From Clytia hemisphaerica (lineage: Eukaryota; Cnidaria; Hydrozoa; Leptothecata; Clytiidae): a stretch of 64,000 nucleotides of DNA. Location: NCBI GenBank assembly GCA_902728285.1, contig CACVBU010000865.1, forward strand, positions 277,044 to 341,043. Reading direction: 5' to 3'. The notes under the pieces are model-generated. The model did not search any database and was not told the DNA's origin. It worked only from the letters and a program-made list of their open reading frames with translations. This document shows positions 7,873 through 47,549 of this stretch, in pieces (positions within the stretch are counted from its first letter, which is position 1; every line of letters begins with the position of its first letter). A program made the translations under genes and the position numbers.

Positions 7873-10365
7873 GTGGGCCCTTTTATATTTAGAAATATCG
7901 GATATCTTATCTCCTTTTTCATATTCAGATAAACACACAATATTTCCTCTTGCTGTTTGTTTAGTTGATGAGAAAACCAAAGTTCCTGGCAGCCATAAAC
8001 CAAACTTCTGAAACACAGAGCACTCATTTTCATTGCTGATGACATCAAGCTTACTACACTTGTTTTCAGGTCCAGATCAAATGAAACAATCCTATTGTTG
8101 TAACTAAGTTTCCTGCTTTTCAAAGCCGGCAAGTAGTGATGCAACTTGTTGCAAATTTTTTATAAACCAGACTCCCCTACTCCATACAAAACCATAGCCT
8201 TTTCCAATCAATGATTAATCAAGAGACTTGGGAAATGAGGATAAGAAATACGCTATTCGTCTATTGAAATCTTTCTTTTAAGAACTTTATGAACTCGAGA
8301 CAATAAGTATATGTAATCACATGATAACGAGTGCAAATCGAGAATAATTTCATGAGTGATTTTTTTGTTATTAATTTTCCGAGTCCGAAAGGAAAATTTG
8401 AAACAAAAAAATCACTAGTGCAATTTTCGAATTGTAAGAGTTTAATCTTTAATCGAATTACGAGCTAATCGCACAATTTTTTCACTACTTTTCCCGTCAG
8501 GAAAGTAAATTACACTGAAAGTTTTACATTTTTACATTTTAAAATCAATTTTGTAAACATTAGCGTGTCATATAAGAGTTAGACAGGAACCCGTCTGCGT
8601 ATTTTTTTTAAATCTGATAAATACTTGACGGGTCAGAGCTGTGAGTCCGATTTTGGCCTCAAAAAAATTACAGTGGGAAATTCGAATTTAGCGCTGTCCT
8701 CACTAACTAAAATAAAAACCACATTTCGGAAGTTGCCCTTTCTTTAAGAAAGTGTGACCAGTGAAACAATAACAGGATTTGATTGGCTGTGTTTTCAACC
8801 GTTATTAGGATATGGGAAATTCAAACTGTCAGCCCATACCATGCTATATATTTCGCCATCAGTATATAGAATAAGAAATCATAGCATGGATCTCCAGGCT
8901 ATTGAAGAGTGTGATTAACGATTAATTGTTCTCTGCAGGGTGCAATTAACGATCCATTGCTCTCTTTGAAGGCGCGCCAAAGGAGAAGAAATAACTCATT
9001 GTGCGATTAAGCATAAAATAATCCCACAACATTATTGAAAAAAATATAAAATAATACAAAAATAGTTATACAAAACAGCTCCATCTAGGGATTTTCCCTG
9101 ATATAATCAAGATATAATGAAATATCTATCTAGCAAATAAAACAGTTCCGCAAATAAAAGTGTATAAGAATTAAAAATAAGAAATATCCTTCTCTGAATA
9201 GAAAACATTTATGCGACTCTTTTAATTTGTAATTGCTGTCAAAAATGGTTTGAATTTTTACTAAAAAAAGATTAAACCCATAAGGGTTTTTCTATAATTC
9301 ACCTTCAATTATAACACCTGGGAAAATAAAGAAGTATTGCAGATAAGAGATGTAAGAGATACATGAAAAAAATCATTATCACTCATGATATCGAGGACTT
9401 GACTTGAAATAAAATTGAGAAGACTATAAAAAAGACCAAAACCTCCCAACTGATTTTTAACTTTTAGCCCCCTTAGTACATTGATTCAGATGTTATAACT
9501 TGAAAGCAGGACTAAAAAAATTAGTATTGCTCCATAGAGCACTAAATTCAATAGATGTGTAACTCATTGCTTAAAAATTGAATGCATTAAAATTTGGTAA
9601 GAATATTGAAAAAATAATATCAGGCTGTGCTAAGAAAAACTTGTGATATAGCTAGTGAAAATATGTGTTTAAGTAAGATTGTAGAAATTAAATAGAAGCA
9701 TTTTTGGGGTCTCCTGGTTTTTTCACATTTGGTAATTTTGGCCCACATGTTTCTTTGCTCTGATGACTTGTTTGGACCATCTTTCCAGGGACAACCTGGA
9801 TACAAAACAAACATCCAAATAAATACAGATTCAAAAAATATTCTCCAGACTGAGCAAATTTACATAATGCGTATTTGGAAATCCACTTTTTCCAGAGAAC
9901 ATTTTCCAAGTATATATCAAATTTCAAAGGATATGTAGGCGGTGCTCAACCAGGTTCAACTGTTCATATCCACGGTTGTCCTGAAAACCTTTACAAAATA
10001 TCAACATCCACTGCATAGATTTATTATTCCATTCTGTTTTGGTCAATCTTTTAGCAGACTTTCCCCTTATACCTTAACGTGACAATCAAAATGCCAAAAG
10101 GTTGAGTCATCCTGAATCAATATTTGCTTCATTGCACCAGTGTGTGAATTGCCAATACTTAACTTTCTGTGGGATAGTTTTTCTGGGTAGTGTTGTTATA
10201 AACAGTAATTCATAGAGGAAATGAAGATAACTAGCCGCAAAATATATAAAATGAAAATCTATTGGAAAACTAGGGCTTTTCTGTAAGCAATCTGTATGAA
10301 TTACCCTAACACAGACTGTAAAGTCCACCGATTAAATTATGTTTTGGCCGCAAAAGTGTTAAAGC
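7873..10365 (-). mobile_element. Interspersed repeat R1, copy i (carries the empty site for element A)
   Basis: In reverse complement this aligns with 14690-15236 joined to 32066-34300 on the plus strand, at about 85-90% by eye. Both copies include a short open stretch (HHYLPALKSRKLxYN, IVSFDLDLK), but it is not a recognisable gene. The key value is at 9860-9885. Here R1 reads straight through (minus strand GGATTTCCAAATACGCATTA), whereas copy ii is split at this point by element A. Copies differ by indels, including a 331-bp segment at 8571-8901 present only in copy i. Class unknown. Confidence 0.75.
8571..8901. repeat. 331-bp insertion within R1 copy i
   Basis: R1 copy ii reads GACACGCC directly next to CTTCAAT (33503-33514), while copy i has 331 extra bases between the same flanks. 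The insert begins TATAAGAGTTAGACAGG and ends GGATCTCCAGGCTA. I see no inverted termini, poly-A or tRNA-like boxes. It could be a SINE or a small DNA element; class not assignable. Confidence 0.5.
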
Positions 10366-10488
10366 CTTGTGGTGTCTATTTTGCATGTGGTATATTTATT
10401 GATAATAACTGGGTTTACATCGATTATTTAAATCCTGAAATTTTTTTATTAAAACATTAATGAAACAAAGGAGGGTGGTTTTATCGAT

Positions 10489-14689: not shown

Positions 14690-15236
14690 TTTGACACTTT
14701 TGCGGCCAAAACATAATTTAATCGGTGGACTTTACAGTCTGTGTTAGGGTAATTCATACAGATTGCTTACTAAATACCCCTAGTTTTACAGTAGATTTTC
14801 ATTTTATATATTTTGAGGCTAGTTATCGTCATTTCCTCTATGAATTACTGTTTATAACAACACTACCCAGAAAACTATCCCACAGAAAGTTAAGTATTGC
14901 CAATACAAGCACTGGTGCAATGAAGCAAAGATTGATTTAGGATGACTCAACATTTTGGCACTTTGACTGTCACGTTCAACGTTAAGGTATAAGGAGAAAG
15001 TCTGCTAAAAGATTAAATGAAACCTGCAGAAACTAGGTATATTATTACTCGCATTATTTAGCTTGACCAAAACAGAATGGAATAATAAATCTATGCAGTG
15101 GATGTTGATATTTTATAAATGTTTTCTGGACAAACGTGGATATGATCAGTTGAACCTGGTTGAGCACCACCTACATATCCTTTGAAATTTGATATATACT
15201 TGGAAAATGTTCTCTGGAAAAAGTGGATTTCCATAT
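14690..15236 (+). mobile_element. R1 copy ii, left part
   Basis: Plus-strand copy of R1, homologous in reverse complement to 9877-10365. It stops abruptly at GGATTTCC plus ATAT (15233-15236), where element A begins. The rest of R1 resumes at 32066 with ATATACGCAATATG. Confidence 0.8.
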
Positions 15237-15445
15237 GTGTCATCACAAGCGATTTGGATAACATAGTTTTGGATCGGTCCGATAAAATGATCGGTGCAGA
15301 CCGACCCGGACCGGCCCGGACCGGTGCCGACCGTTCTCGAGTGATACATTTATTTTCTCCGATCTTGTTTGTTTTGATAAGTCGATAGCTTGAATCTATC
15401 GTTCCCGTCCGGTCCGGACCGTCCCGGACCGGACCGTACAGAACG
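15237..15445. promoter_or_regulatory. Left TIR and subterminal CCGGTCCGGACCG array of element A
   Basis: After the 28-bp TIR come clustered palindromic units: GATCGGTCCGAT, GACCGACCCGGACCGGCCC, CCGTCCGGTCCGGACCG and CCCGGACCGGACCG (15270-15440). Matching clusters lie at the other end. Such subterminal arrays are often transposase-binding sites; that function is inferred. Confidence 0.6.
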
Positions 15446-16596
15446 GGCCTTGGTCATAACTCTCGGCTGCCGGCAAAACTTTTGCACGTTTAAAAAAGGT
15501 AAACAGTACAACAGTCTGGAAAGTGATGTTCTCATTTCTGATAAATTGGTGCCTTGTAGTTGTTGTCTATTGGATTATTTTGACACCAATTGTTTGGAAC
15601 AAATACTTATTTGATACTGACATAATTTAACTTGCTCCAAAGTGATGAGTGTATATGTAGAATAAGAAGGCAACAAAAACAAGATATTGATGGATTTCCT
15701 AAGCTGCATGCAAAAGCAAGATGATTTGTCTATAATTATATATATATCAAAAATCTTTTAACAAAGTCTATAGCTACTGTTTCTCTAAAACATAGATGAA
15801 TTAAAAGTTCTGAAAAGCTGAGTTATTGTCCCAATTGTCCCAATTTTTTTTTGACTTTTTTACTTTTGTGTTGCAAGTTTTTTCAAGCAAGGATATTGAA
15901 AACTTCTTTTGTTGCCGTAAAAGAATAAAGGGTGCAAGAAAGTTTTGGTGATATAAAAGGCATGCAGGCGATATAAAAAGGCTGTGTTATGTTCGCTTCT
16001 TTGAAGCTCAGAAATTTCATATGCGGGCAGGTAGGGGTAAACAGAAAAAAATCTGGAAATTATCTCTTCGGGCGGCAATCGAAAATATGTTCCGTTTGTG
16101 TCAAAAATTTTCTTAAAATTGAATTGTCGTTTGGTTGGTAGTAAATTTAGTCAGGTTTTTGGAAAATGGTTTCAAAGTATATATAGTTTTTAAAATATTT
16201 ATTCTTCGCTCTTGTTTGATGAAAAATTCCAACAATTTTCTGACTTGTCCGACTAGGAATTTTTGTCTACAACTACAAAGTTAGTTGGTCGGCTGACACG
16301 AACAGAACATATTTTCGATGGTCGCCTTATTTCATTTGCGTTCAATATTTTGAAGTTATATATATTATACTAAACCAAGCTTGGTTATTTGACCTGATTT
16401 TTCACATAAAACAACAAAAAAGAAATCCAATGTCATATTGCAACTAGAAAATACAATCATAGAAAATATTTAACTTTGGTTGAATAAAAAATTGTTTTGA
16501 AATAACAAATAGATATTTGATTGAAAAAAATTAGTCACAGTATGATAATATTGAAGGAACTAAAGTTGAGATTTGTTCCCTAGTTAATGTGTATAT
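15446..16596. other. Element A left non-coding arm
   Basis: AT-rich sequence between the subterminal array and the nested MITE. No coding region recognised. Confidence 0.45.
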
Positions 16597-18163
16597 GTGA
16601 CTCCCAAGCGATTTGGAGTACACAAAAGTCCGATCGGTTTAATGACCGTTCCTCTTTGGCCTCTATTGGACCGGTCTTTTTACCGCTAAGGCCGTTCAAC
16701 TATCGAAAGAGGCCGATGCATGGCCGATCATGAAAAGCGGCCATAACGAAGAGGCTTCGAGGCCGCTAAAGGGGCCCGAGCGGTCCAATGCCCGGTACGC
16801 TTCGTCCAGATGGCCGCTATTGATTTCTTTACTTACTTACTTTTACTTAGCCTCGTTTCCGAAAATGTAAACATTGAGTTCGTTTCTTGGAAAACGAGTT
16901 GCCGTGTGTTGTGAAATTGGAAACTGAGATTTTCTTCTTGCAGTTTTAAATCATTTGGATTTTATTTTGATATGGTAGAAATTTTTAACAACGTGGAAAT
17001 TCGTGGACATTTGACATTCCATGGGAAAAGGATCACTTTTGCTCTCAACACTTTATCGATACGATTAAATTATCGATTCTATCGATACACCTATCGATAC
17101 ATAGGCCTATCGATAGACTTTTATCGATAAGAATTTAATGATCCCAAATAAGCGATTAAAAATTAGTGATAGGAGCTTTATCTATAAAAGTTTAACAATA
17201 AATGATCCATGAAAGTTTAGCGATAGAAACTAATCGAAAACGATAACAAAATTAGCAATAGAAAATTAGCGATAAAAATTTATCGATACAACTTAGAAGT
17301 CATTGTAGTGTTTTGGTGTTTTTAAGTGTCCCAGTTTTTACAAACAAAAATGTCTAAAGACATAGTAAGTTGCACAAGTACGTCAACAGACTTTTTAAGA
17401 AACAGAACACCCCTATCTCTTAGCAAGAACTTTTATTGAGCCGATCCATTTGTAACAAAAGCATAGTTGTTTTCTTCATAAATTTCACTAGAGTTTCTTA
17501 TGCATACTTTTACCAACTTGTTTTTCTTCGTATGTTTTAACAAGAATAGTCAACAAATAACTCGTTTTCTACATTGCTTTCACAAGCATCTCTCATGCTT
17601 AGTCTTCTGACTTTGATTTCTTTGTAGCGTTTAAATGCGTCTGTTATGCTTAGTTTTATCAACTCGCTTTCTCCGTAATTTTCACGATCGTCTCTTATGC
17701 TTAGTTTTATCAACTCGCTTTCTTCGTAATTTTCACGAACGTCTCTTCCTTATCGATACAACACAAGATAGATAATTTTACTATCGATACACCTTTTCAA
17801 CATATCTTAATCATATATGGCTCATATCGAAAGATTTTAAAATGCTAAACGTTATTGAAGTTTCCTCAATTCTACTTTTTGAAAAAGATTGTACTTTTGA
17901 GGATTGAGTAGTTTTTTAGAACCGGACTTTTTTAGACCGGACTTTCGACCGCTCCAGACGCCGCTTGGAAGTCTCTTGCTCAAAAAGGGCCGCTAAAAGA
18001 GCGGCCTCAAGCGGACCTTTCAAAAATTCTCTCGCCCGCTTGGAGGCCGATCTTCACGAACAATGGGCCGCTAAAGATTTTACTTCGGCCGCTTTAAGAC
18101 CGGTATTTTACCCGCTTTGGGCCGATCGGTCTTTTGTGTACTCCAAATCGCTTGAGGAGTCAC
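16597..18163. mobile_element. Nested 1.57-kb non-autonomous element, GTGACTCC termini, ATAT duplication
   Basis: Inverted ends GTGACTCCCAAGCGATTTGG (left) and GTGACTCCTCAAGCGATTTGG-type (right, one extra base), continuing AGTACACAAAAG and then CCGATCGGT. Flanked by ATAT at 16593-16596 and 18164-18167. The termini share CAAGCGATTTGGA, the GTG start and ATAT duplication with element A, so it is probably a non-autonomous relative. The core has no gene. It carries GGCCGCT-rich subterminal sequence, TATCGATA-rich sequence (17050-17290) and 3-4 direct repeats of roughly 64 bp around CTTATGCTTAGTTTTATCAA (17570-17745). Confidence 0.8.
17460..17745. repeat. Tandem repeat, ~64-bp unit
   Basis: Repeated segments containing TCTCTTATGCTTAGTTTTAT, CAACTCGCTTTCTTCG and TAATTTTCACGA recur with a period of roughly 60-66 bp. 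The last two units are almost identical; earlier ones are decayed. Non-coding. Confidence 0.6.
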
Positions 18164-18423
18164 ATATACCCTAATTTGAAAAACTTTTTACCATCAACCG
18201 GAGCTACTTGTGATATTCCAGTCAAACAAGGAATTCATAGGAAATTTGTTTTCAGAAAAGGAGAACCAATAGTTGGTAGTCTCATGTTTGACTGGAGGAT
18301 CCCAAGTAGCCCCTGTTGACAATACTATGCAAATACTTATCAAATTGATGAGTATGTCATAATTTATTTCAACGTGCACCACAAAAATAATGATTTAATT
18401 TGCTTATTGTAGAGAAAAGACGG

Positions 18424-18769
18424 TACCGTATTTCCTCCAATAAGCACCGCACCAAAAGATTTTTTTTTCAAAATAAGCGCCACCCTCTTTTTAAGTTCTT
18501 TCTCTAATAATAGAGTTGCACCTAGAATCCAATGCAAAGCGGCGCTTATTAGAAAATCAAGAAAAATAAAGCTGCGCTTATTAAAACATAAAGACTTATA
18601 TCATATGGTTTGTGATTCTCCTTGAATTTTGATTGAGATGAAATAAATAAAAAGCTTCTCGTTAAACAAAACGCATTCAATTTTTCTACTGAACCCAGAA
18701 TTTAAAATCAAAAAACAAAAGTTTGCAATTTCGATATAAGCCGCAGCGCTTATTTGAGGAAATACGGTA
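18424..18769. mobile_element. MITE, TACCGTATTTCCTC termini
   Basis: Inverted ends TACCGTATTTCCTCCAATAA and (reverse) TACCGTATTTCCTCAAATAA with TA at both borders, 346 bp, rich in AATAAGCGC-type motifs. It lies just downstream of the element A transposase stop codon. Non-coding. Confidence 0.75.
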
Positions 18770-19401
18770 ATGGAGTTTGCTTTTTTTAAATCACTGAACA
18801 TTAACAATTATTTTTTTCATTTTCAGAATGACTAATAGAAAGAATACTAAGAAACTAATTAATAATGATCTGGATCCGGTGCAGTTATGTTTTTCGTTTC
18901 TTCCGTGCAAAATTCTCTTATATCTGTGTAAAGATATTCCTTCCGTTGTCTTGAAAATCCTTTCGGTTCCACAACAGATGGCAAATCATGAGAGACTTTA
19001 CGAAAATCCTCAACAATACATATTTTGGTTGGTAAATCATCAAATGTTTTTGAGCAATACACAAAACCAGGTTCATCAGACGACATTCGAAAGTGATGGT
19101 ACTCAAGGAGATTTTCGATTGGTTTAAACTTTTTCTGTATGAAATGTTCCGTCCAATCATATGTGGGGACATGAATCTTTTGATCGTGTGTCCCAACAAG
19201 CACGGAAATGTTGCACTTGGTGCTGTCACAAACTTTGGCAACATCATACAGTGATGATACATGTGTTTTGCGGAAACTCTTTTTGAAGGCACCAAAGCAT
19301 CTAATAATGAAAAGTAAATTACTGTAGATACTGGCCTGGTAGATTTGAAGGGAAGTTAAATGATTTTAGAAATACCTTAAATTCAGAATTATAATTTTTC
19401 A

Positions 19402-19647
19402 TATACCTTAAAGGAAGAAATTTTGGCGCATTTGGCCGAAATCTGCCAAATTAAGTTCCGCTAAAATTTCTTTTTTCCTCCATCCGCCAAATTTAATTTT
19501 TTCAATGTTTTTGCATTTTTTTCTGTTTTTACGCCATATTTAAGGTTAAATCTTTCAGCAACCACCAAATTAAATTCCTGCCAAATTTAGTTTTTTCGTC
19601 CATCCACCAAATTAAATTCTCGCCAAAATTTCTTCCTTTAAGGTATA
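19402..19647. mobile_element. MITE in transposase intron 2, TATACCTTAAAGG termini
   Basis: Inverted ends TATACCTTAAAGGAAGAAAT and ATTTCTTCCTTTAAGGTATA, 246 bp, with TA at each border. Non-coding. Sits in intron 2 of the element A transposase. Confidence 0.75.
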
Positions 19648-19945
19648 CCATTTTATATTGTAGTAATTAAGGCCAACATTAAGAAAATTACCACATTTGC
19701 AAAATTAAAACCTTGAAAACTTCTTCCCATAAAATAATTAACTGTTAACTGCTTTGAGGCCAATGCTGTAAAAGTTTAGTATTTTAGTATGATAGATTTT
19801 TATCAGGGTTTAAACTTTTCATTCTGTATTATAAATTTATTAATTTATTCTGTATTTTTATTGTTATAAAACAGAAAGCGCAAAAATTAGTTCCTGCTAA
19901 GATTTGTACCCTCAAGTTAATAAAGATAAGTCTAGTAAAATAACC

Positions 19946-20040
19946 TACCTTATTGGTAGAAATTCTGGTGGATACTAAATTTATTGGTTTTGGCAGTTAA
20001 GCCAAATTTAGCACCCACCAAAAATTCTACCAATAAGGTA
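19946..20040. mobile_element. 95-bp MITE, TACCTTATTGGTAGAA termini
   Basis: Inverted ends TACCTTATTGGTAGAAATTC and the reverse complement at 20021-20040, with TA borders. A related element with TACCTTATTGGAACTAATTT ends lies at 28884-29110. Confidence 0.75.
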
Positions 20041-21504
20041 TTTACCTGTCGCAGCTGAATTTAGTGTGACCAGCAATCATGAATGATATTCAATTTTTTG
20101 ATGGAAGCCATTGATTATTCTCCACATCAGATAATGCAGGAAAGCATTATTCTTATTCTGGCCTAAGTTTGAAAAAAGTGAAAAACAATTATATAACTGG
20201 TTTGCTTAATAATCTGATATAAATGATAATTTAATTCTTATATTTATGTTTATTTTCAATTGTCATAAATTTTTGAAATTATTGGAAAAGTTGTTTTAAA
20301 AGTAGCAATTTTCTCGTTTAAGATAAAATTATGGGCTGTTCCAGGAAATGCTTTTGACCCCTTTATAATTAAGCCTGATAAATTTTACATTCACAAAATA
20401 CATAATCGTGTACATGATTTTCTTTTTATAAGCATAACATACTTATAAGCATATTGAGACCCAGATTTTAATCCTTTAAAGCAATAGATCTATTGTTTAA
20501 GAAATATTTTTTTCAATATATAATGAGGCCAAATAAGCTTATAAGCGTTATGCTTATAAAAAAACATGTATTGATACCTGAACAGTTATCAGCGTGTAAA
20601 TGAGAATCAGTTTCTCCAAGATTGAAATTTTCAAGAAAATGGTGAACGTAGCTGATGGTGGTATTCGCTCCTTTTCCGGTAGAATTGATTTCATCGATCA
20701 GGTAGCTGTACTGCATATTGACTCCATCATTACAAATACCAAAAATGCTGCACTTTCGAGGCATTTTAAAAAAGATTGGGCCCGGTTGAAGTGGGTTATA
20801 CGGGTAGTGGACTTGTTGAGCGAAGTCCCAACTAAAATGAGCCATACCCTTAAATGAGCACTTAGGCTTTGGCGAAAAGAGGTCGAACTTCTCCGAACTA
20901 ACAATAAGCTCCTTTGCATTTTCTTTGGCCTTATCACATTGGGCTCGGTAATAGCGCTGCTCTTCGGTAGCCCGGACGATGTGTTTTTTATGTTCTTCCA
21001 AGACTTGGTCATAATCGTCATCTTCGTCCTCGAAATTTTTGGCCCGCGCGCGAATTAGTTTTGTATTTCCCTCTTGGCAAACCCAATATAAATCGCTCAT
21101 CGTTTTTGCGATCACGATGTGGGGCAATCTGGCTCTCCAAAATTCCGAAAATGTACTTAGACCCATAATGGGTAGATCGACAATATCACTAGCCTCCCGA
21201 TACTTTTCATAAATTGTTTTCCGGGTTTCGTGCGACGGTAGCAGTTGTAGCCTGGCCTCTTCGTCACGATAATGCGGTACTCTGCCCGGTAGTAACAGAG
21301 CATTCTGCTCAGCAAAGTTGACGAGAAAGGCGTTGTTACTAAAAGTGGTAACACAGGGTAACACATGGTAACAGGGGGTAACTCTAGGGTAACAGGGGGT
21401 AACACATGGGTAACACATGGGTAACAGGGGTAACAGGGTAACAGTTTGAAAATGGTGGCTCTGAGGGGTCGGAAATTTGAAAATAGACTTAACCAATGTT
21501 GTTG

Positions 21505-22263
21505 GTGAATACAATGATAGAATGAATGATGCTGGTCAATGCAATGATGGAATCGATGTTGCTGGTGAATGCAATGATGGTGTTACTGGTGAATGCAATG
21601 ATGGAATCAATGGTGCTGGTGAATGCAATGGTGGAATCAATGGTCCTGCTGAATTCAATGTTGGAATCAATGGTGCAGGTGACTGAAATGATGGAATCGA
21701 TGTTACTGGTGAATGCAATGATGGTGTTACTGGTGAATGCAATGATGGAATCAATGGTGCTGGTGAATGCAATGGTGGAATCAATGGTGCAGGTGACTGA
21801 AATGATGGAATCGATGTTACTGGTGAATGCAATGATGGTGTTACTGGTGAATGCAATGATGGAATCAATGGTGCTGGTGAATGTAATGCTGGAATCAATG
21901 GTGCTGGTGAATTCAATGTTGGAATCAATGGTGCAGGTGACTGAAATGATGGAATCGATGTTGCTGGTGAATGCAATGATGGTGTTACTGGTGAATGCAA
22001 TGATGGAATCAATGGTGCTGGTGAATGTAATGCTGGAATCAATGGTGCTGGTGAATTCAATGTTGGAATCAATGGTGCAGGTGACTGAAATGATAGAATC
22101 GATGTTGCTGGTGAATGCAATGATGGTGTTACTGGTGAATGCAATGATGGAATCAATGGTGCTGGTGAATGCAATGGTGGAATCAATGGTGCAGGTGACT
22201 GAAATGATGGAATCGATGTTACTGGTGAATGCAATGATGGTGTTACTGGTGAATGCAATGCAA
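21505..22263. repeat. Minisatellite, left arm (24/30-bp units)
   Basis: Alternating units built on GCTGGTGAATGCAATGATGG and AATCAATGGT (30 bp), and GGTGTTACTGGTGAATGC plus AATGAT (24 bp). Unit lengths are multiples of three and lack stops in several frames, so long open frames appear on both strands; these are not genes. Confidence 0.9.
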
Positions 22264-23035
22264 CTACCAACGTTTTACCTACTCTACCTATGTACGATAG
22301 ATTACGGCCTCTAAAACAGTAAAAGTTTTTATGTTTAAACGATACTATATTTTTAGAACGTTTTATCTTATGTTTGTATGATAAATTACTGTCCTTTAAC
22401 ACAGTACTTAAAAGTTTTTAAGTTTGAGTGGTTTATCAAGCGACACTATATTTTAGGAAGCTTTATCTCATGTTTGAATTTTCTTATGGTTATTGCTGCG
22501 GCTAGGATAGTGCATGTTACTTTCGTTTCGTGTTTCGCGTTTCACCTCACTGCTCTCAAATTTCGTCATCTTTCGATACTGACCATTTCATTTTCCATAT
22601 CTCCTAAGATCCTAAAAGCCAAATTTAATGGTATAAGAAGAAAGAAATATTTGGGTGATTTTTATTAACTCCGGTTATAATTTCTTAATATTTTTACTTT
22701 GTAAATAGTTAGCAAAAAAGAGAGAAAAGTAATAACTTGTGTTCCTTTAAAACAAAGATTAAATTTCCTTGTCTTATACATAAGTTGGTCATTCTTATTC
22801 TAAACAATCGTGTGCCCCCTTAAAAGTTTATATTTTGACTAACTCGGATTAAGCTGCATTCCACTGCATCGCCAAATTTATCAAAAAAAATCGAAGTGTC
22901 CAGGGGTAGATCTTTTCAAAAATTAATTGATTTTTCATATCCCGTAGAACAATTTCTTATTAAAATAGCCTAAATTATAGAATTATCATTTTCCTTGTTC
23001 TGAAAGTTTTAAACTATTGAGACATATTTTTGATA
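22264..23035. other. Non-repeat core of the giant-TIR element
   Basis: About 770 bp of AT-rich sequence between the two minisatellite arms. No convincing coding region. It is the only single-copy part of the element's centre. Confidence 0.5.
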
Positions 23036-24420
23036 ATCACCTGCACCATTGATTCCACCATTGCATTCACCAGCACCATTGATTCCATCATTTAAGTCAC
23101 CTGCACCATTGATTCCACCATTGCATTCACCAGCACCATTGATTCTATCATTGCATTCACCAGTAACACCATCATTGCATTCACCAGCAACATCGATTCC
23201 ATCATTTCAGTCACCTGCACCATTGATTCCAACATTGAATTCACCAGCACCATTGATTCCAACATTGAATTCACCAGCACCATTGATTCCAGCATTACAT
23301 TCACCAGCACCATTGATTCCATCATTGCATTCACCAGTAACACCATCATTGCATTCACCAGCAACATCGATTCCAACATTGAATTCACCAGCACCATTGA
23401 TTCCAGCATTACATTCACCAGCACCATTGATTCCATCATTGCATTCACCAGTAACACCATCATTGCATTCACCAGTAACATCGATTCAATCATTTCAGTC
23501 ACCTGCACCATTGATTCCACCATTGCATTCACCAGCACCATTGATTCCATCATTGCATTCACCAGTAACACCATCGTTGCATTCACCAGCAACATCGATT
23601 CCATCATTTCAGTCACCTGCACCATTGATTCCAACATTGAATTCACCAGCACCATTAATTCCAGCATTACATTCACCAGTACCATTGATTCCATCATTGC
23701 ATTCACCAGTAACACCGTCATTGCATTCACCAGTAACATCGATTCCATCATTTCAGTCACCTGCACCATTGATTCCAACATTGAATTCACCAGCACCATT
23801 GATTCCAGCATTACATTTACCAGCACCATTGATTCCATCATTGCATTCACCAGTAACACCATCATTGCATTCACCAGCAACATCGATTCCATCATTTCAG
23901 TCACCTGCACCATTGATTCCAACATTGAATTCACCAGCACCATTGATTCCAGCATTACATTCACCAGCACCATTGATTCCATCATTGCATTCACCAGTAA
24001 CACCATCATTGCATTCACCAGTAACATCGATTCCATCATTTCAGTCACCTGCACCATTGATTCCACCATTGCATTCACCAGCACCATTGATTCCATCATT
24101 GCATTCACCAGTAACACCATCATTGCATTCACCAGCAACATCGATTCCATCATTTCAGTCACCTGCACCATTGATTCCACCATTGCATTCACCAGCACCA
24201 TTGATTCCATCATTGCATTCACCAGTAACACCATCATTGCATTCACCAGCAGCATCGATTCCATCATTTCAGTCACCTGCACCATTGATTCCAACATTGA
24301 ATTCACCAGCATCATTGATTCCAGCATTGCATTCACCAGTAACACCATCATTGCATTCACCAGTAACATCGATTCCATCATTGCATTGACCAGCATCATT
24401 CATTCTATCATTGTATTCAC
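23036..24420. repeat. Minisatellite, right arm (inverted copy of the left arm)
   Basis: Reverse complement of the 24/30-bp array in the left arm (ATTCACCAGCACCATTGATT and related units), nearly twice as long (about 1.39 kb versus 0.76 kb). The junction with the single-copy block (ACATTGGTTAAGTCAATTTT) is inverted-identical to the left arm. Long open frames on both strands are by-products of the unit length. Confidence 0.9.
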
Positions 24421-25034
24421 CAACAACATTGGTTAAGTCAATTTTTCAAATTTCCGACCCCTCAGAGCCACCATTTTCAAACTGTTACCATGTGTTACCC
24501 CTGTTACCCTAGTGTTACCCCCTGTTACCCATGTGTTACCCCCTGTTACCCTAGTGTTACCCCCTGTTACCATGTGTTACCCTGTGTTACCACTTTTAGT
24601 AACAACGCGAGAAAGGTTTCCGCATGTTGTCGTGTTTCGATTGGAAGAGAATTATGTGGTGATTTTCTCTTATTTCCATGTTCACGAGGAACAAGGCCGT
24701 TTGTTTGGAAATGTTTGCACAAAGTAGCATAGAGCTTTAGTGACAAGGCGAAACAAAATAAAAACGTAGTGCGACAAACACGTTGACCATACAAAAAAAA
24801 GTTTGATTTATCACCATTATTTGCTTTATTAGCCATAAGAAAACCCATTACGAGCATGTCTCTCTCTTTATTGTCCAACTCAAAAACGTCATCTCGAAAC
24901 TTAGAAACTTGGTCCTTGGTGAATAATTGAAAACATTGCGATTTTTCAGGTCCAATTTTACAACCACAACCATCTCTAAAAAATTTGTCAACTTTTTCCT
25001 CCTCTACAGTATCAAGTGCTCGTTTCTCAGACAT

Positions 25035-25512
25035 GGTAAAATATAACGATCAAAATAACAAAATGCACTTGGAGACCTCAACTAAAAGAATCAAAGATCA
25101 AAAGTTTATCTGGGGGTATTTATAAGAAACGAAACACATTATTTTCGAACGTTTGTTTATCTTTTCTTTTAAACAAATTACATAACATTACATAACATTA
25201 TCCTTTTTTATGAGCATTCAGTTTTGTAGTTATCAACTCATAATTACACAACTTATAAGAACGTCAACAGACTGTGTTTTGACGCTACATAATACTACAT
25301 CTAAGTGACGTTTTCTTAAGATTCGAATCGAACATTGGAGAATGTCGTTAATTAACGAACTATCAAATGTGACGTAATAAAATGTTGCGAATTATTCGAA
25401 ATGTTTCCGATTTACAATTGATCTCACTATAAAAGAGTTCGAATTTTCGATTTATTCACTTGTCTCAAAGCTTTTACAAAGTGATATTAAGAGATTTACG
25501 ATATTATTCATC
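25035..25512. promoter_or_regulatory. Divergent promoter region of element A with two TATA boxes
   Basis: For the transposase (-), TATAAATA lies at 25124-25117, about 85-90 bp upstream of the ATG at 25034. For the companion (+), TATAAAAG lies at 25428-25435, 85 bp upstream of the ATG at 25513. The two boxes sit almost symmetrically around a roughly 300-bp centre. This arrangement supports real, once-active genes. Regulation beyond core promoters cannot be read. Confidence 0.6.
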
Positions 25513-28500
25513 ATGCCTAGTACACGTGTTAGAACTGTGGAGGATAAATTACCTCAATTTACTTTGATTTTTTTTGCAATTGATGGTACCACCGTAATTA
25601 AAAGTACGGACCAATTGAAATGGGTAATCAGAGGAGAGACCTGCCGTATCAGGATCAACACCAAAGAAGTTTTGGATGGAAAGGTTCTAGCAATGAGAGG
25701 TAGGCACAAAACAATTCCAGTTCTTGTTGAACGATGCTAGATTTTTTATTAGCAACATTTCGATTGGGACAGGCTACGTCTGTCCTAAACGTAAAATACT
25801 CTTTTTCATACTTTATGCGTACAAACTTTCACGATTGCCGCGAAAGTGAATGTCATTAAAAATTCTAGGATGGGCCATTCGCGAAAATTTATGCTCCCGA
25901 AAAATTCTTGACAAAATAGAAAGTCTTTAAAACTTCAAACTTTAATTAAAATTTAACTTTTTTGGCATTTTTAGCCTGCTAAAAGACTAATAAGTTAAAG
26001 GACGTCCCTATCTAAGCAATTTTTTCATGTGAAAATTCTCAATTTTACGTCTTGATTCGCGAAAGTTTATGCTCGCGAAAAATATTTTTTCATTAAATTT
26101 GCGAAGGTAACTGTCGTGAATTTCGCTATTTTTCGTCCTCGCGAAAGTTTGTACGCCTAAAGTATAAGAACAACGAGGCTCAAAATGGCCTAAAAACGTT
26201 TGTGACTAAGCAAGACTAGAGTCTACTTTTGGCAGGACTGCCATCCAGTCTATAAAAAAACCATTAAGTGGACCCCGGGCTATGACAAAGCTAATAGTTT
26301 CCTTATAGGACCCTGACTTGAAAATTTCATGCTCAAAAAGTATTTTTCCCACTAAAAATAGGTCTATTTTTTACATTTTAGATACCAAGGAGGAACTCAA
26401 TGATTTCGAGTTGGAGTGGGAGAAAACTCAAAACAAAGAGGTGGTCTCATCAGATACGGACACAGAACCAGAGGAAGAAGAAACAACTAAAGCGAAAGCG
26501 GTATGTAGTTTTTATTTCTTCAGCCATGCGGATTCAGCTTCATCTCCGGTAGTATTTTGCTCTCGATTTGCGTTCGACCTGGAAAAAATATAGAATATAT
26601 TATCTTCGTAATGACCAATGGTATCAGAAACAATGAAGTATAAGTCCGGAGGGCTAGAAGTCAATCTCCTTGGTAGGATTTGAGACAACAAATCCTACCA
26701 AAGTTGGGCGGCCTTGAGCGGCTCGCCTGGTTTTTACACAAATGACAGATTGAAACTAAAATCTACCGCTAAATTTCGAAAAAAATATCAATCGTAAACA
26801 AAGGAATTGTTAGATTCAATCTGTCGTCAAAAATGCGACGCATTTTTTAAAGCTTCACTTTTTCTTGCCTGAGAAAGGTTAGAGATTGAACTCTAGCCCT
26901 GTATCAGAAAGGGATGATTTGGCGGGAAAAGAAATACATTTTTTTATAAGAACTTTTTTGCCTCTCTGTACTACCATCCATACGATACAAATTTTTTTGA
27001 AAAGACATTTATCCCTTTTCTTTTCTTTTTTGCAGAAATCCAAAACACCAAAGACGAAAACACCAAAGAAGGCAAAGATTGTCAAAACAAAGGCAAATAA
27101 AAAGGAACAAAAGAAGTCAGGAAAAGAAAAGAAGGTATCTATAAACTTACCTTAGAGATTTATGTAAACTTCTGGGATTTGATGGATCTAAAAGGAGATA
27201 ACATACTTCTTAAGTTGATTTTTTCTAGGCTGTCACAAAATAAAGATACTTTTATGGCAAAATTTCTTATTTGTATCAGATTTTGGGCAATTTGATTAAA
27301 AAGAGGGGCGATTTTGGGTAAAGGCAATGGATATTAATTTTGACAAACCACCATTTTTTCAATTTTGACCAGTACTTATCTAGTATTGGGTTATTCCATT
27401 TTTAGTCCCTACAGGGGTATTGAGGAACTTTTCAGGGGTCTTTCAACCCTTTTTTCCAAGGTTTTTTTTTTGTATTTTCAAAAAATTTCTAAGGGGCTTT
27501 ATGAAGATTTCCAGAGGTCAATAAAACTTTACAGGTTTTTTCCAACCTCTTGTTTCAGAAAATCAACAAAAAAAGAATTTTCCAGGGGGTGAAAACTCAA
27601 TATCTAAGGGGTAAGCTGATGTTGAAAATTTCCAGGGGGTTTTGTAAAAAAAGTTTGTCAATAACTCTGTATGGTTTTTTAATATATAGATTATTTTAAT
27701 CATAGAAATTTTAGCAAGACTAATTTTAGCGAATCACAATTTCAAAAAATTTCACGTGGATAAATTTTAGCAAATTGCCATTTCCAAAAAACTTTTTGAG
27801 ATGTATGTATTTTGGTGAAAGTATAAGAGAGAGATAATATATATATATATAGAGATAAGCGTGTGTTTTACATTTTCTTACAGAACTCTAGGGACCGACA
27901 AAAATAAATATCTTTATTAATTTTCGCAAAAAATCATTAAAAAAGGAGACTTGGACTGGATTTAATTAAACTAATAGTAGGGGGAAATTTGTAAAAACGC
28001 TCGATTTTTTTAGTCAAAGCACTTGTTATACATTTTTGGAAAGCTAAGGGGTAGGGGAATTAAAATAACTTAGGTGCCAATTTTGTTTCGGACACTTTGG
28101 TGTGATTTTCGGAGAAATACGACAGTCTCGGGCAAAAATCATAGGGTGAAAAATTAGTGAAAATTTTAACTTGAGAAAACGGAGACCTGTTGTATATTTT
28201 TGGAAAGCTCTCAAAAAATTAAGATTATTGATATATTGCGAGTATAGGTGATTTCAGTACCTAACTCGAGATATCGAGCTTCCAAAAGCGCTAAAACTGG
28301 ACAAAAAAGCTGTTTCTGGCTGAAAAACACTGAAAAACACTGTTTTTAAGGATTAAAATCTCGAGTTAGGTAAAGAAATCACCTATACTCGCAATATATC
28401 ACTAATCTTAATTTTTTGAGAGCTTTCCAAAAATATATAACAGGTCTCAGTTTTCTCTAGCTGAAATTTTCATTATTTTTTCACCCTATGATTTTTGACT

Positions 28501-30859
28501 GAGACCGTCGTATTTGTCCGAAAATCATACCAAAGTGTCCGAAGCAAAATTGGCACCCAAGTTATTTCGATTCCCCTACCCCTTAGCTTTCCAAAAATGT
28601 ACAACAAGTGCTTTGACTAAAAAAATCGAGCGACCTCAAAAAAACGAACAAATTTCCCCCTAAAATAATTGCATTTTGAAAAATTTAGCGCGTATAAATT
28701 TTAGCGATCTGTCGATTCGGCATGTTTTAGTGAAAACAGGGAAAACTCGCTAAAATTTCTACGATTAAAGTAGCCGATTATTGACTTTAAAAGCAACACA
28801 AGTTTCTAGAGCTTATTTTCAAACATTCAGGAATATAAAATATAATTCAGGAATAGTGAAAATCAAATGAAATCAGGTATACCTACCTTATTGGAACTAA
28901 TTTTCGTGGTCGAAAAAAATATCCGAAAAATTGCATTTCACGGGTTCTAATTTTGGCGGTTTTTTACATTCTGGAATTTTTGCAGGTTTTAATTTTTGCG
29001 GTTTTGCCCTTTTTTGGACAAATTTCTTTCATTTTCCTAGGGATTTTTCAAGATTTTTTTTGCCGAAAAAGCTAAAATTAAAACCTGCAAAAATTAGTTC
29101 CAATAAGGTACTAAAGTCATAATTAAAAAATAATTCTTATTGATTTAATGTATTATCCTTCTATCTATATTAGGTTGAAAAGGCAAAACGAAAATCGAAA
29201 TTGGAGAAGGCACGAGAAGCTGATGCAAACCGGGTTGCATGCAAACAAGTTCAACAGGTAAGCTAAGTTCCAGTGTTCAGTTTTAATTTCAGACTTTTTT
29301 TATTAAGCCTAGATAGCCATGAAATTTTAAGCCAAGCCAATTTCAATTATTTATTAAAGTTTTCTGACCAAGAAAAAAGATTGTCCCATAGCAACAATAT
29401 CAAAGAAGTTTCTTAAAATCCTCATCACAAAAAATTCATATCTTATCTATTCCTATTTCAGCCACAATCAAGTATGCTTCAAGGCGAAAAGACGAGGGAG
29501 GTAAATGGTTTTGCTTTTGATCGGATGACAATGGTGACCACCACAAAAAATAAAGACTCACCGCAATTTTCAATTGTTTCAAGTATGCCAAGATCGAAAC
29601 CTGCTACTGTCCATTCCTTGTCAGCCACTTTGTCATCGACCGTCAATCATTCCTTGTCAGCAAGTTCAACTGTCTCGACCGTCCATCTTTCCTCGTCAGC
29701 AAGTTCGATCGTCTCGTCACCAACAGTCCATTTCTCCATCGCGTCGACTGTCCACTCCTCCATCACGTCAACTGTCTTGACCGTACAGTCCTCCATTGCG
29801 CCAACTGTCTCGACTGTCCAAGCCTCCATCGCATCAACTGTCTCGACTGTCCAGTCCTCCATTGTTTCAACCGTCTCGACTGTCCAGTCCTCCATTGTTT
29901 CAACTGTCTCGACTGTCCAGTCCTCCATTGTGCCGACTGTCTCGACTGTCAAGTCATCGTCAGCTAGCTCCACCGTTCATTCCTCGTCAGCAGCTAGCTC
30001 CACCGTTCATTCCTCGTCAGCAGCTAGCTCCACCGTTCATTCCTCGTCGCCAGCTAGCTCCACCGTTCATTCCTCGTCAGCAGCTAGCTCCACCGTTCAT
30101 TCTGTGTCAGCAAGTTCGATCATTCAAGTCAATTCCTCATCCTTAATGTCGACTGTCCATTCTACGTCTAGCCTATATCAGCCCATCCGACCAACTGCTT
30201 CTCCTTTGTTGACATCAACTCCAGGCTCAATCAATTACGGTGAAGTGGTTGATGATTCGTCAACTTCTTTTGAAATTCCAAATGCGTTGACAGACCACGC
30301 CATGGAACCATTGACCACAAAACCATTGATGTATCTATCTGGACAAATTTTGTTAGAGCTGAGACAGCTACGCCAAGAAGTTTTTAAGTGGCAGGAGGCA
30401 ACAATAAACTTGACCGGAATGATGGTTTCATTGCAGCAGCAGCAGCAGCAGCATGTTCAACAACCAATCACCAATCAGCAACCACCACCAGAACAACCAC
30501 AGTCATCTCAGGAAGTAGATTTGAATTTGGATTTGGTGGATGAGCTGTTAGGAAATACAAAGGGAAATCTTTCAGTTTATGAAATAAAACTTGTTGCGAA
30601 GGATGGGTTTGATTACATGAAAACGGTTTTTTCATCTCATCAGATGCTTCATTACACAATTTCTGGGTTGAGAGGTTATTTAAAATTCACGGAGGATGAC
30701 ATGGACAAAGTTTACCGTTATTTAACCAACAAATATAATTTAACAAAACCATATGTAAGCAATGCAATCATGCCAATTGTGTCTGATAAACTAAGAAAAT
30801 ATCGCAATAGTCATAGAAGCTCAACCAATTTTTTTCAGATATTTCTTGAACGGTTTTAA
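25513..30859 (+). CDS. Element A companion protein, 5 exons, BEN-like C-terminus
   Basis: Exons 25513-25699, 26382-26500, 27036-27134, 29174-29257 and 29462-30859, all with GT..AG borders and compatible phases, give an uninterrupted 628-codon frame. Order: an N-terminal 60-residue module (LPQFTLIFFAIDGT..VLDGKVLAMRG) and an acidic segment (DTDTEPEEEE). A Lys-rich segment (KTPKTKTPKKAK, RKSKLEKAREAD) follows, then about 190 residues of Ser/Thr/Val repeats (TVSTVQSSI, SSTVHSSSA) and a leucine-rich coiled coil (LSGQILLELRQLRQEVFKWQ) with poly-Q. A C-terminal region (DELLGN..FDYMKTVFSSHQMLH..DKVYRYL..SDKLRKYR) has the spacing of a BEN domain, a DNA/protein-binding fold. The domain call is by eye. 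Nuclear, DNA-associated function with the transposase is inferred. Element B carries a homologue in the same position. Confidence 0.65.
25809..26164. mobile_element. MITE, TACTTTAGGCGTACAAACTTTC termini, in companion intron 1
   Basis: Inverted ends TACTTTATGCGTACAAACTT and (reverse) TACTTTAGGCGTACAAACTT with TA borders, 356 bp, full of GCGAAA/TTTCGC motifs. The motif style matches the MITE at 10894-11569. Non-coding. Confidence 0.75.
27410..27671. mobile_element. MITE, TACAGGGGTATTGA termini, copy 1
   Basis: Ends TACAGGGGTATTGAGGAAC and (reverse) TACAGAGTTATTGACAAAC, with internal CCAGGGGG motifs near the right end. A second copy with the same ends is at 43902-44124. Lies in companion intron 3. 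Confidence 0.65.
27977..28662. mobile_element. Foldback element, ~340-bp inverted arms, copy 1
   Basis: Starts TAGGGGGAAATTTGT and ends ACAAATTTCCCCCTA. The arms pair almost throughout (GGACACTTTGGTGTGATTTT with the reverse of CATACCAAAGTGTCC, and GTATAGGTGATTTC with GAAATCACCTATAC) around a short centre near 28320. Essentially a long hairpin. A shorter, diverged copy is at 47550-48026. Non-coding. Confidence 0.8.
28884..29110. mobile_element. MITE, TACCTTATTGGAACTAATTT termini
   Basis: Inverted ends TACCTTATTGGAACTAATTT (28884) and its reverse at 29091-29110, with TA borders, 227 bp. Ends 64 bp before companion exon 4. Related to the 95-bp element at 19946-20040. Confidence 0.75.
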
Positions 30860-32065
30860 GTGTTGTCGTCGTTTTTTTTTTTGCAGAACTTAATTTTCTT
30901 GATTCACTTGACACTGTAAAAAAAATAGTCAAGCCTTTTTAAAGTATTGTGATATTTCCTAGCTATACGTCAATCAGAGACAATCAGCATGATTGCTTGC
31001 CTGTTTATAGTCGGCAGTATTTTGAAAAATTGACTTGACGCAATAATTTCTTTGGTCTTTTTTAATTAAAATTTTGTCCTTTTGCAGCCTATTATTTTCT
31101 CAAATTCTCTTGATGCTAGAAAAAAGTCTTATCGTGTAAGAGTTATGATTTTTTTGTCAATGGTAACCTTTCCACAATTTTAGTTTTTCATCACATTTTA
31201 AACTATGAGATCAACTACTACATTTAGGTATTTACTTAACAAATTTGGGATGTAGTTTTTAGATTATAATCCATATTTTCATTGTAATACTAAAATAATT
31301 TCTCATTTCCAAGAGCTTTTTTTGAAAGATTTCAAACTTAAAGTTTCATTCTCCCTTTCCTGTGTTTCAAAATAGATTAAAAACTCAACATACAAAATAC
31401 CTTACTTATTGTTAGAAATACAATGTACTTACCACAAATCTGGTTTCATGTTTCATAAGAGCAATAACATTAAAAAGGTTTTCGAGATATTTCGTGCAGA
31501 GCACTGCTTCATTCAGTCACATGTGTGGAAAGGGTAATCTCAGTCTGTCAGCAGCGTTTTGGATCAAATTTACACACGTGATAAGTGTAAAATGCAGAAC
31601 AATTTAGAAAAAAGAAATCTTATCTTTATATAATTATAGAATGTAAAAAATACAATTGTGATCACAGAATTAGAAAAACTACATTGATTTGTCAAATATG
31701 ATTAATAATATCTCCTAAAAGATAGTTTAAAACGAAGATAATAAGGTAAATTTACGTTCTGTATTTTAACTCGATCGGCCATTTTGGTTTATTTTTCTCG
31801 TATGCCGTAAAACAAAAGGTTGGTCCGGAACGGTCCAGAACTAAAAAAAGGAACAGTCCGGCCCGGACCGGACCGGCCCATAACGGTCCGGTAGCGTTTT
31901 GTTTTGATTTTGTTTGTTATGTTTTTCATGGAACTATCTGAATGTCGATGGACAATTACGGATCGGACAGGACCGATAGAGACCGATAGAGACCGATAGA
32001 GACCGATAAAGACCGTTACAGTACGGTCCGAATTTTAATGTTATCCAAATCGCTTGTGATGACAC
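30860..32065. other. Element A right arm: 3' flank of companion gene, subterminal array and right TIR
   Basis: 30860-31800 is AT-rich without a gene. At 31815-31905 and 31960-32035 there are clustered GGTCCGGA, CCGGACCGGACCGG and four GACCGATAGA-type repeats, mirroring the left end. The right TIR occupies 32038-32065. Confidence 0.6.
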
Positions 32066-34300
32066 ATATACGCAATATGTAAATTTGCTCATTCTAGAGA
32101 ATATTTTTCGAATCTGTATTTATTTGGATGTTTGTTTTGTATCCATGTTGTCCCTGGAAAGATGGTCCAAACACAAGTCATCAGAGCAAGGAAACATGTG
32201 GGCCAAAATTACCAAATGTAAACAAACCAGGAGACCCCAAAAATGCTTCTTTTTAAATTCTACAATCCAACTTACACACATATTTTCACTAGCTATATAA
32301 CAAGTTTTTCTTAGCACAGCCTGATATTATTTTTTCAATTTTCTTACCAAATTTTAATGTATTCAATTTTTAAGCAATGAGTTACACATGTATTGAATTT
32401 AGTGCTCTGAGGAGCAATACTAATTTTTTTAGTCCAGCTTTCAAGTTAATCTGATTGGTTGGTCCAAGCGATTCAGAGATCTGGATGGTGGCGCGCGTAT
32501 AAGAAATTATGCGAGCCGACTGGAAGTGTTCGCCTAAATATTTAGGTGGACCGCGCGGGCGATCAGTAAGGCGCATACGCTGCTTTGCAAATCTCCCTGA
32601 CTTTTCTTCTTCGAAGCAAATAACAACAGAATATCTAATTATCTCCCTTGGGTGTTTGACCACGCATCCAAATAAAAATAACGATAATGGTAGGGAAGAA
32701 GTGTGAAGATCAAAACATGGGAATTTTTAGATGTTCTGGTTGTTTTCTTTTCAATTACTTGCTTAGATATTCTTGTTTTAATCTTCTTAATGACTTGGTT
32801 GCATCGTGTAAAGAACTAAAAAGGTATATCTTTATTTTGCTTCAATTCTTCTTTTCTGTTTGCCAATTTTGTATTGCTGTTTTGGGTTGGATTTTGAAAA
32901 AAAAACTCTCCAAAATTCACTTTGCACTTTTTGTCTAAACAGACTTTCCACCACACACTGTCTATATTTTATGGTCAAGGCTGCCATTCTAAATTGATTT
33001 ATCATTGCTGGGGTACCATCTTGAAATTATGCATGTCATTATGTGCATATATTTATTTGCAGCCATGGGATTCATGCAGGAAAATCTGTCAACAGGGGTT
33101 CACCTGATTGTTAGGTGCACCAAGCTCTATAATTTTAGAAACTTTGTCTGGCTGAGGTAAAACTTATTTTTTCTAAAATTTTGAGCTTGGATATCCAGGC
33201 TAAAATGTTTTCTATTCAGAGAAGGATATTTCATATTTTTAATTCTTATACACTTTTATTTGCGGAACTGTTTTATTTGCTAGATATGTATTTCATTATA
33301 TCTTGATTATATCAGGGAAAATCCCTAGATGGAGCTGTTTTGTATAACTATTGTATTTTTTTCGATAATGTTGTTGGATTATTTTATGCTTAATCGCACA
33401 ATGAGTTATTTTCTTCTTCTTTGGCGCGCCTTCAAAGAGAGCAATGGATCGTTAATTGCACCCTGTAGAGAACAATTAAACGTTAATCACACTCTTCAAT
33501 GACACGCCAATGTTTACAAATTGATTTTAATGTTTTTTCTGTTATTGTTTTATCGAACGTTTTAATTGCATTTGAAATTCATTTTTTGAGAAAGAAAATC
33601 TTTCAGCAAACAATAAAAGAAAAACATAAAGAGAAGAGAAAAATGTAAAACTTTCAGTTTAATTTACTTTCCTGACGGGAAAAGTAGTGAAAAATTGTGC
33701 GATTACCTCGTAATCACATAACAACTCTTACAATTCGAAAATTGCATTCATGATTTTTTTGTTTCAAATTTTGCTCGTCCTTTCGGACTCGGAAAATTAA
33801 TAACAAAAAAATCACTCATGAAATTATTCTCGAATTGCACTTGTTATCATGTGATTACATATACTTATTGTCTCGAGTTCATAAAGTTCTTAAAAGAAAG
33901 GTTTCAATAGATGAATAGCGTATTTCTTATCCTCTTTTCCCAAGTCTCTGGATTAATCATCGATTGGAAAAGGCTATGGCTTTGTATGGAGTAGGGGAGT
34001 CTTGTTTATACAAAAATATGCAACAAGTTGCATCACTACTTGCCGGCTTTGAAGAGCAGGAAACTTGGTTACAACAGTAGGATTGTTTCATTTGACCTGG
34101 ACCTGAAAAACAAGTGTAGTAACTGCTTGATGTCAGCAATGAAAATGAGTGATCTGTGTGTCAGAAGTTTGGTTTATGGCTGTCAGGTACTTTGGCTTTC
34201 TCATCAACTAAACAAACAGCAAGAGGAAATATTGTGTGTTTATCTGAATATGAAAAAAGAGATAAGATATCCGATATTTTTAAGTATAAAAGTATGTCAA
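32066..34300 (+). mobile_element. R1 copy ii, right part
   Basis: Resumes R1 after the ATAT duplication. Homologous in reverse complement to 7873-9872. Differs from copy i by a replacement at about 32452-33205 and small indels. Contains an open stretch around 33962-34320 (VGESCLYKN, HHYLPALKSRKLGYN) with stops, which I cannot assign to a family. Confidence 0.75.
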
Positions 34301-45568: not shown

Positions 45569-45766
45569 CTTTCTAGGTTTATTCTGTGATCTTGCTTTCA
45601 ACCAAAGCTACCAGCAAATGAAAACAGAATGCTGATAGTCAAAGGTGCGCGCGCATAAGTAGACATACTTTGAACCTTCGAAAATGTGTTCAAGATCGAA
45701 TGTTTTACTGGTACATGTTTTTACGTCATTAGGATCGTGACAAATTTTGTGAATTTGAGTTTGAAT

Positions 45767-45895
45767 TGGAATAGGGCCCTAATATTACTACGTGACCCAA
45801 TGGCAACATGGTGACATGTATTGGGAATAGGGCCCTAATTACTACGTGACCAGCATGATGACACGTTTGGAATAAAGGCCCTATACTACGTGAGC
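45767..45895. repeat. Three tandem units in the element B divergent promoter region
   Basis: TTGGAATAGGGCCCTAATAT, GGGAATAGGGCCCTAATTAC and GGAATAAAGGCCCTATACTA, each followed by CTACGTGA, recur at spacings of about 55 and 46 bp. They lie between the divergent transposase (45568) and companion (46135) starts. Could be regulatory or a plain minisatellite. TACGTGA also resembles the GTGACGTAA seen in the element A promoter region. Confidence 0.55.
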
Positions 45896-46489
45896 AAGCT
45901 GTAAAACAATAGAAATTTCGAATAACAAAAGTTTGCGATTCCGAAAACAATAACGAGTAACATTCTAATTGGTCCTTTCAACTAGTTCCATTGTTTCTGT
46001 CACCTTATTCAATTGTTTCGGATACCTTCCCCTGTAAAAGAAAACGCTTCAAAAGATCACATTACTTTTCTGCTCACATCAGCTTTGTTCAATTTTAAAT
46101 ATAATTTTTACCGTTGTTTATTTGTTTGTTCAACATGGCTAACCGTCCAATAAGAAAAGTAATTGAAGAAAATCTCCCAAAATATGCCTTGGTATATTTT
46201 GAATCAGATAAGAAGACAGCATCAAAAGGACTGACCAACTTATCTGGAACAGCCAAGACCAGCGTGGAAAATGTTGCAAATATGTTTTTGGCACAAAGAC
46301 ATTGATTGGGCAGATTCTAACTATGAAAGGTAAATAGTTAGTGGGGAACTAATCGAATAGATATTACACGTTTTTTTTTAAGAAACTAGTTTTACCAAGC
46401 AGCCTCAATGTTTCTTAAGAAATCGGCCTTTTGAGCCTTAAATGTTTCTAAACTTTTTGACATTATCAGCCTCATGGAAGGCTGAAATT

Positions 46490-46910
46490 TGACCTCCTAT
46501 GAATTTCTCTAATTCGATATTCTTGCCAAATAAGGATTAATTTCACTTCGCTTGAATTTCTCTAATTCGATTTTATTGCCTTATAAGGATAAATATGGTG
46601 TCAATGGAAATTGTTTTGCCTCCTATAAATTTCTCTAGTCCGATAAGGATAAATATGGCGTCAATAGAAAATTTCACCTCCTTTAAATTTCTCTAATTCG
46701 ATAGTAAAATAAGGATTAATATATCAATATTTCACTTCGTTTCTCTAATTCGATTTTATTGCTTTAAAAGGATAAATATGGCGTCAATGGAAATTATTTG
46801 GCCTCCTATAAATTTCTCTAGTCCGATATTCTTGCAAACTAGGGATTAATATAACGTCAGCGAAATTTGACCTCATATAAATTTCTCTAATTCGATATTG
46901 AACATTATTT
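46490..46910. repeat. Tandem repeat in companion B intron 1, ATTTCTCTAATTCGAT core
   Basis: At least seven degenerate units contain AATTTCTCTAATTCGATATT or CTCTAGTCCGAT, followed by TAAGGATAAATATGGCGTCA. Spacing about 45-75 bp. Non-coding; ends just before the exon at 46917. Confidence 0.7.
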
Positions 46911-47549
46911 CTATAGAGACGGAGAATGAAGTGAACATCTACGAAAATAATGGGAAAAGAATCAGCCCAAGAAACGAAAACAGGCCGAAACCGAGACCGA
47001 AAGTGACGACGAAGAGGAAGAGGAGAACAGAAAAAAGAAGAAGCCGAGACAGGTATGTTATTTTTCATGACAAATTTATTTCAGTGAACGTATCTTCTAT
47101 GATTTCAGTGTAGAAAATCTAAGTTGAAATTTCATTTTCTCTTTAATGAACAAGTCAGATTGTTTTAATAGGCTTATTAATACTGTATTCCAAAAAGTAT
47201 AATTTCGTGATTTTTGGACAAGTAGAAAAAATCTTCATTTTTTTAATTTTCATTTTTCTTCATTTTCTAATTTTTCAAAATCATTAAGCATATTAAAACA
47301 TTCTCTTCAAAATTATCTTTCCAACGGTATATAACTTTTTATTATAGCATAAACAAGTGCTGAGAAAATGTTAAAAAAGTAAAGTGTCAACATAATTTTG
47401 AGACAGACTTTAATTCTATGCTAGGGAAGGGTTTACTAACTTTAAAGGAATGGTATACTGACAAAGAAATTTTTCAAAATGTCTTACTGGATACTCCTTT
47501 TCCAAAAAAAAAAAAGTAAAATTGTAATCAGCTTCATTTTGAGCAATAG

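Follow-up and report, generated by a model that had tools for sequence, protein, structure and literature searches.

Locus and structure of the element

We analysed a stretch of 64,000 nucleotides from Clytia hemisphaerica (C594:277044-341043, hereafter the window; C-numbers denote contigs of the 417-Mb assembly). It contains a DNA transposon of 16.8 kb, located from its ends at positions 15237-32065, with a divergent pair of genes: a transposase on the minus strand and a partner gene on the plus strand. Its features, with those of the insertion site, are as follows (window positions).

9496-10371, no strand: copy of flanking repeat R1, inverted and without interruption, a paralogous empty site with AAAT at the target
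15233-15236, no strand: left target-site duplication ATAT (from the joined-flank empty-site comparison and copy pairing)
15237-15264, plus: left 28-bp terminal inverted repeat GTGTCATCACAAGCGATTTGGATAACAT, perfect
15265-15636, plus: left subterminal stretch of CGGACC / CCGGACCG units
16597-18163, no strand: nested 1.57-kb (1,567-bp) relative with similar ends GTGACTCC(T)CAAGCGATTTGGAGTACAC, ATAT on both sides
18859-19300, minus: transposase exon 3
20046-20162, minus: transposase exon 2 (QNKNNAF...SCDR), frame disrupted inside
20578-21330, minus: downstream part of transposase exon 1, ending HADNCSG, with candidate residues D286 and D365 (P0001 numbering)
21331-24607, no strand: nested 3.28-kb (3,277-bp) foldback element, flanked by the 9-bp duplication CGAGAAAGG, which splits transposase exon 1
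24608-25034, minus: upstream part of transposase exon 1, from the start codon
25513-25699, plus: partner exon 1, N-terminal domain MPSTRVRTVEDKLPQF...LAMR
26382-26500, plus: partner exon 2
27036-27134, plus: partner exon 3, Lys-rich, its end set by the 99-nt counterpart in C386
29462-30814, plus: partner exon 4, Ser-rich repeats followed by a BEN-like C-terminal domain (30503-30814)
31666-32037, minus: right subterminal stretch of GACCGATAGA repeats and CCGGTCCG units
32038-32065, minus: right 28-bp terminal inverted repeat GTGTCATCACAAGCGATTTGGATAACAT, perfect
32066-32069, no strand: right target-site duplication ATAT

The original prediction, made from the window alone, described perfect inverted 28-bp termini, each next to ATAT, with half of repeat R1 on either flank. 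Comparison of the window with itself (BLAST) and the empty site bear this out. The R1 halves are the left and right flanks of the element, and a whole inverted copy of R1 lies 5 kb away. Joined around a single ATAT, the flanks match this copy without gaps, with AAAT at the target. As the empty site retains four bases between the flanks, a 4-bp duplication fits and a 2-bp duplication is disfavoured. The empty site also rules out a repeat boundary in place of an insertion. An assembly join was likewise rejected, since C386, C662, C147 and C853 cross the nested foldback site without the foldback (its empty site is seen in C386), and both ends match between C386 and the window.

The CCGG-rich subterminal arrays of the original prediction are present as CCGG/CGGACC-rich stretches. 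In terms of distribution, counting CGGTCC on either strand gives 13 occurrences in the 734 end positions, against 3 in the 15,624 inner positions.

The window copy is not a working one. The insert at 16597-18163 has its exact empty site in C508 (GTGT-ATAT-ACCC), and the first 9 bases of the upstream part of transposase exon 1 are the second copy of the foldback duplication. The frame is broken in transposase exon 2 and again at the partner C-terminus, directly after 30814. With these nested insertions and broken frames, the copy keeps both ends intact, but neither of its genes is. The element had been called complete and said to hold exactly one divergent gene pair; the pair itself stands, with the strands given above, but "complete" does not hold for a working copy, and "exactly one" left out two nested mobile elements.

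The foldback has GTTACC-rich ends and long inverted tandem arrays of 30-, 114- and 144-bp units, and its duplications are of 9 bp, as in Mutator-like elements. Also inside the element is an inverted repeat with 290-bp arms (27998-28632). Sequences matching it occur in C386, C508 and C147, and a relative lies at 47.6-48.0 kb, close to a second related element (copy B, below). The inverted repeat is perhaps an older nested miniature inverted-repeat transposable element (MITE). An Rfam scan at gathering scores gave no match.

Copies elsewhere in the genome

The assembly was searched with a 29-base end, composed of the 28-bp terminus and the last base of the duplication, which left the search unbiased on the duplication except for its final T. 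In 417 Mb there are 11 exact matches to this end and none to the backwards control, and every one of the 11 has AWWT beside it. Exact ends pair in four copies, each with identical duplications on both sides.

Window copy: 16.8 kb, duplication ATAT, exact end pair
C386 copy: 14.5 kb, duplication AAAT, exact end pair
C508 copy: 12.0 kb, duplication ATTT, exact end pair
C662 copy: 7.3 kb, duplication AAAT, exact end pair

The three unpaired exact ends are flanked by AAAT, ATAT and ATAT. The termini do pair outside the window, and the predicted ATAT is not the sole duplication, the paired copies showing A(A/T)(A/T)T (ATAT, AAAT, ATTT).

Allowing up to 3 mismatches, we found 138 and 131 ends genome-wide, with 0 in the controls. 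Among the 100 of these 269 ends that were listed there are 17 pairs within 25 kb, 16 of them with identical duplications, and AWWT stands at the start of 91 of the 100, although the share of ATAT is biased by its presence in the search pattern. The 17 listed pairs comprise five of 7.3-16.8 kb, one of 1.2 kb and 11 of MITE size (217-664 bp).

The many MITE-sized pairs would suit a reading in which the transposase genes belong to the host and ordinary sequence, bracketed by two MITE ends, makes up the 16.8-kb unit. We regard this as extremely improbable. It is contradicted by the end-paired copies of 7.3, 12.0 and 14.5 kb, which retain both genes, whole or partial, and by a separate, diverged family represented by a 15.8-kb element in C575. 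Both ends of this element were found, with the same core GTGTCATCACAAGCGATTT, and the same gene pair lies inside them, so the transposase does not turn up there with unrelated termini. Its subterminal repeat is a different one, the palindrome GAACGTTC, with 20 occurrences in the ends versus 1 in 14,601 inner positions. As the window ends have CGGTCC instead, the end core is common to the two families and the subterminal repeat family-specific.

Paired copies of the window's own family (family A) align to it in larger blocks that are mostly 92-99% identical, and in a 162-codon exon segment the window has zero synonymous differences from C386 or from C147. Both observations point to a recent spread of family A. 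For C147, C853 and C894, second ends were not found in the contig stretches examined.

C523:303500-308000 contains three MITEs of 487 bp, alike in orientation and with the same ends, spaced 1,682 and 1,684 bp apart. This looks like a tandem triplication with one MITE per unit.

Transposase and partner gene

The predicted HADNCSGQNKN-type transposase is recovered, with its DNCSG/QNKN motif spanning exons 1 and 2. It is 99% identical to a Clytia hemisphaerica database protein, and predicted Clytia transposases have 554 and 563 amino acids. A Pfam scan of the spliced exons finds DUF7869 (PF25273) at 53.5 bits in the window copy and 55.9 bits in copy C, a related element at the window's edge (cut-off 26); DUF7869 was not detected when the exons were scanned separately. 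Relatives with this domain are found in cnidarians and a sponge by protein search. The C386 transposase has a frame break near its N-terminus.

Constraint on the transposase is observed. D286, D365 and D407 are conserved in 61, 62 and 60 of 62 sequences, respectively, and in the structural model the protein is an RNase-H DDE/D fold with these residues as a D-D-D triad, the candidate catalytic residues. Profiles of the transposase and the partner gave no significant match in a sequence search of the Protein Data Bank.

As for the partner, its C386 copy is open across four exons (610 amino acids, GT-AG borders). The C-terminal domain models as a BEN-type DNA-binding fold, the model matching structures of BANP, BEND3, BEND6, Insensitive and Bsg25A. 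Pfam returned no BEN family on the partner at E<=5 or E<=10, and with a match by fold only we name it BEN-like by fold and not as a member of Pfam BEN. A search of 5.8 billion proteins gave no partner homologue at E<=1e-3.

Partner exon 1 lies divergently upstream of the transposase at 12 of 14 other loci, two of these weakly. With two queries, E-values were 8e-10 (C382), 6e-10 (C327) and 5e-4 (C230), and C731 gave no match to this exon. These loci and the C575 pair support the predicted dedicated partner protein. It is unlikely that the partner is instead a host-derived or passenger gene outside the transposition machinery. Large transposons can carry cargo genes, the transposase is better conserved than the partner, and 2 of the 14 loci showed no partner exon, all of which would suit a passenger. 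Against this, position, orientation and exon 1 are constant beside transposases down to ~48-50% identity to P0001, and the pair is also kept in the separate full element of C575. Overall, the evidence supports a DNA transposon whose ends are defined and flanked by 4-bp duplications, and which combines subterminal arrays with a DNCSGQNKN-type transposase and its dedicated partner gene.

Other mobile sequences are present in the window. Copy B (43088-52150) is a second, degenerate related element, with a transposase on the minus strand containing many stops and partner exons on the plus strand; its right end ATATGTGTCATGCCACGCGATTT is at 52150, and its left end was not found within the window. 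Copy C (62494-64000 and beyond) runs off the window, with a first partner exon at ~65.5 kb of the extended contig; a search of the next 17 kb with one pattern did not find an end for it. At 2944-4547, fragments of an endonuclease and a reverse transcriptase (PF14529, PF00078) are probably a broken long interspersed nuclear element. Finally, two related reading frames on opposite strands (53202-54068 and 58181-58606) carry a Cys/His motif (CECPKGINGSTCWYQF and CECPQGINGSTCWYQF). The first of these, the only one scanned, has no Pfam match at E<=1e-3.

Relation to known transposons and proposed mechanism

Passages of PMC3627910 give AWWT duplications for Sola2, including ATAT, AAAT and ATTT. A passage of PMC10741241 describes Sola elements as having DDD transposases and 4-bp duplications; their ends measure 11-1124 bp, and most are 2-9 kb in size, with some above 15 kb. 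The Clytia family agrees on each point: A(A/T)(A/T)T at all 11 exact ends, in all four pairs and at the empty sites; the D286, D365 and D407 triad on a modelled RNase-H layout; 28-bp ends; and copies with genes that measure 7.3-16.8 kb when nested inserts are counted. This combination of AWWT duplications, DDD triad, variable inverted ends and large size fits Sola2 as described in these passages, which makes the earlier statement that no named superfamily has it doubtful.

A distinct, unnamed superfamily with a DUF7869 transposase, in which the Sola2 duplication match is convergence, is rather unlikely. Sola is not necessarily alone in having AT-rich 4-bp targets and DDD triads, and the likeness comes from published descriptions of Sola elements. 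In openly licensed papers we found no description of DUF7869 or of a DNC.GQN-type transposase motif, and no transposon with a BEN-like partner. On the other side, AAAT, ATAT and ATTT are the very duplications named for Sola2 in the passages cited, and triad class and size range fit too. We therefore consider that the family probably belongs to the Sola superfamily, a placement based on published descriptions, and that the window holds a degenerate copy of a cut-and-paste family, probably of Sola2 type, with divergent genes for a DDD transposase and a BEN-type partner whose roles are as proposed below. Some differences from the Sola2 descriptions in these sources are seen: Sola2-Fanzor elements also have a second gene, but it is Fanzor1, whereas here it is BEN-like, and one Sola2 transposase is quoted at 888 amino acids versus 554 and 563 in Clytia.

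In the proposed mechanism, the DUF7869 transposase would recognise the 28-bp inverted ends through the core common with the diverged family, and would carry out cleavage and joining at 4-bp A(A/T)(A/T)T target sites. The subterminal repeats, CpG-containing and specific to each family, may be bound by the BEN-type partner, which may also assemble or regulate the transposition complex.

Comparable arrangements are known, here likened by description only. PIF/Harbinger elements work alike, with a transposase and a separate Myb/SANT-like DNA-binding partner, but partner type and duplication length (3 bp) differ. In the TnpA-TnpD system of En/Spm (CACTA) an accessory protein binds subterminal repeats, as proposed for this partner, but the ends (CACTA) and the 3-bp duplications are different. 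Kolobok lineages, in the passages of PMC9587614 that concern them, likewise combine a DDD/E transposase, a lineage-specific second protein such as KolX and 4-bp duplications; they differ in their TTAA targets and in ends of 5'-RR and YY-3'.

The new part is the partner gene, with a predicted BEN-like fold missed by Pfam. BANP, BEND3, BEND6, Insensitive and Bsg25A, with which its C-terminal domain would have the fold in common, are transcription and chromatin factors and, unlike the partner, not transposon proteins. We tentatively suggest, as a possibility somewhat short of even, an animal lineage with two-part machinery, in which the DUF7869 transposase reads a conserved end and a fast-evolving BEN protein reads family-specific CpG-containing repeats.

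With these results DUF7869, a domain of unknown function, gains a transposon identity, element boundaries and a candidate catalytic assignment. They also suggest a partner with a BEN-like fold, undetected by sequence and of a type known from gene regulators. Two questions thereby become open to test: by what means large transposons with two genes define their ends, and whether there is a link between animal BEN proteins and mobile elements. If the two-part machinery is true, animal BEN factors might include proteins domesticated from such elements.
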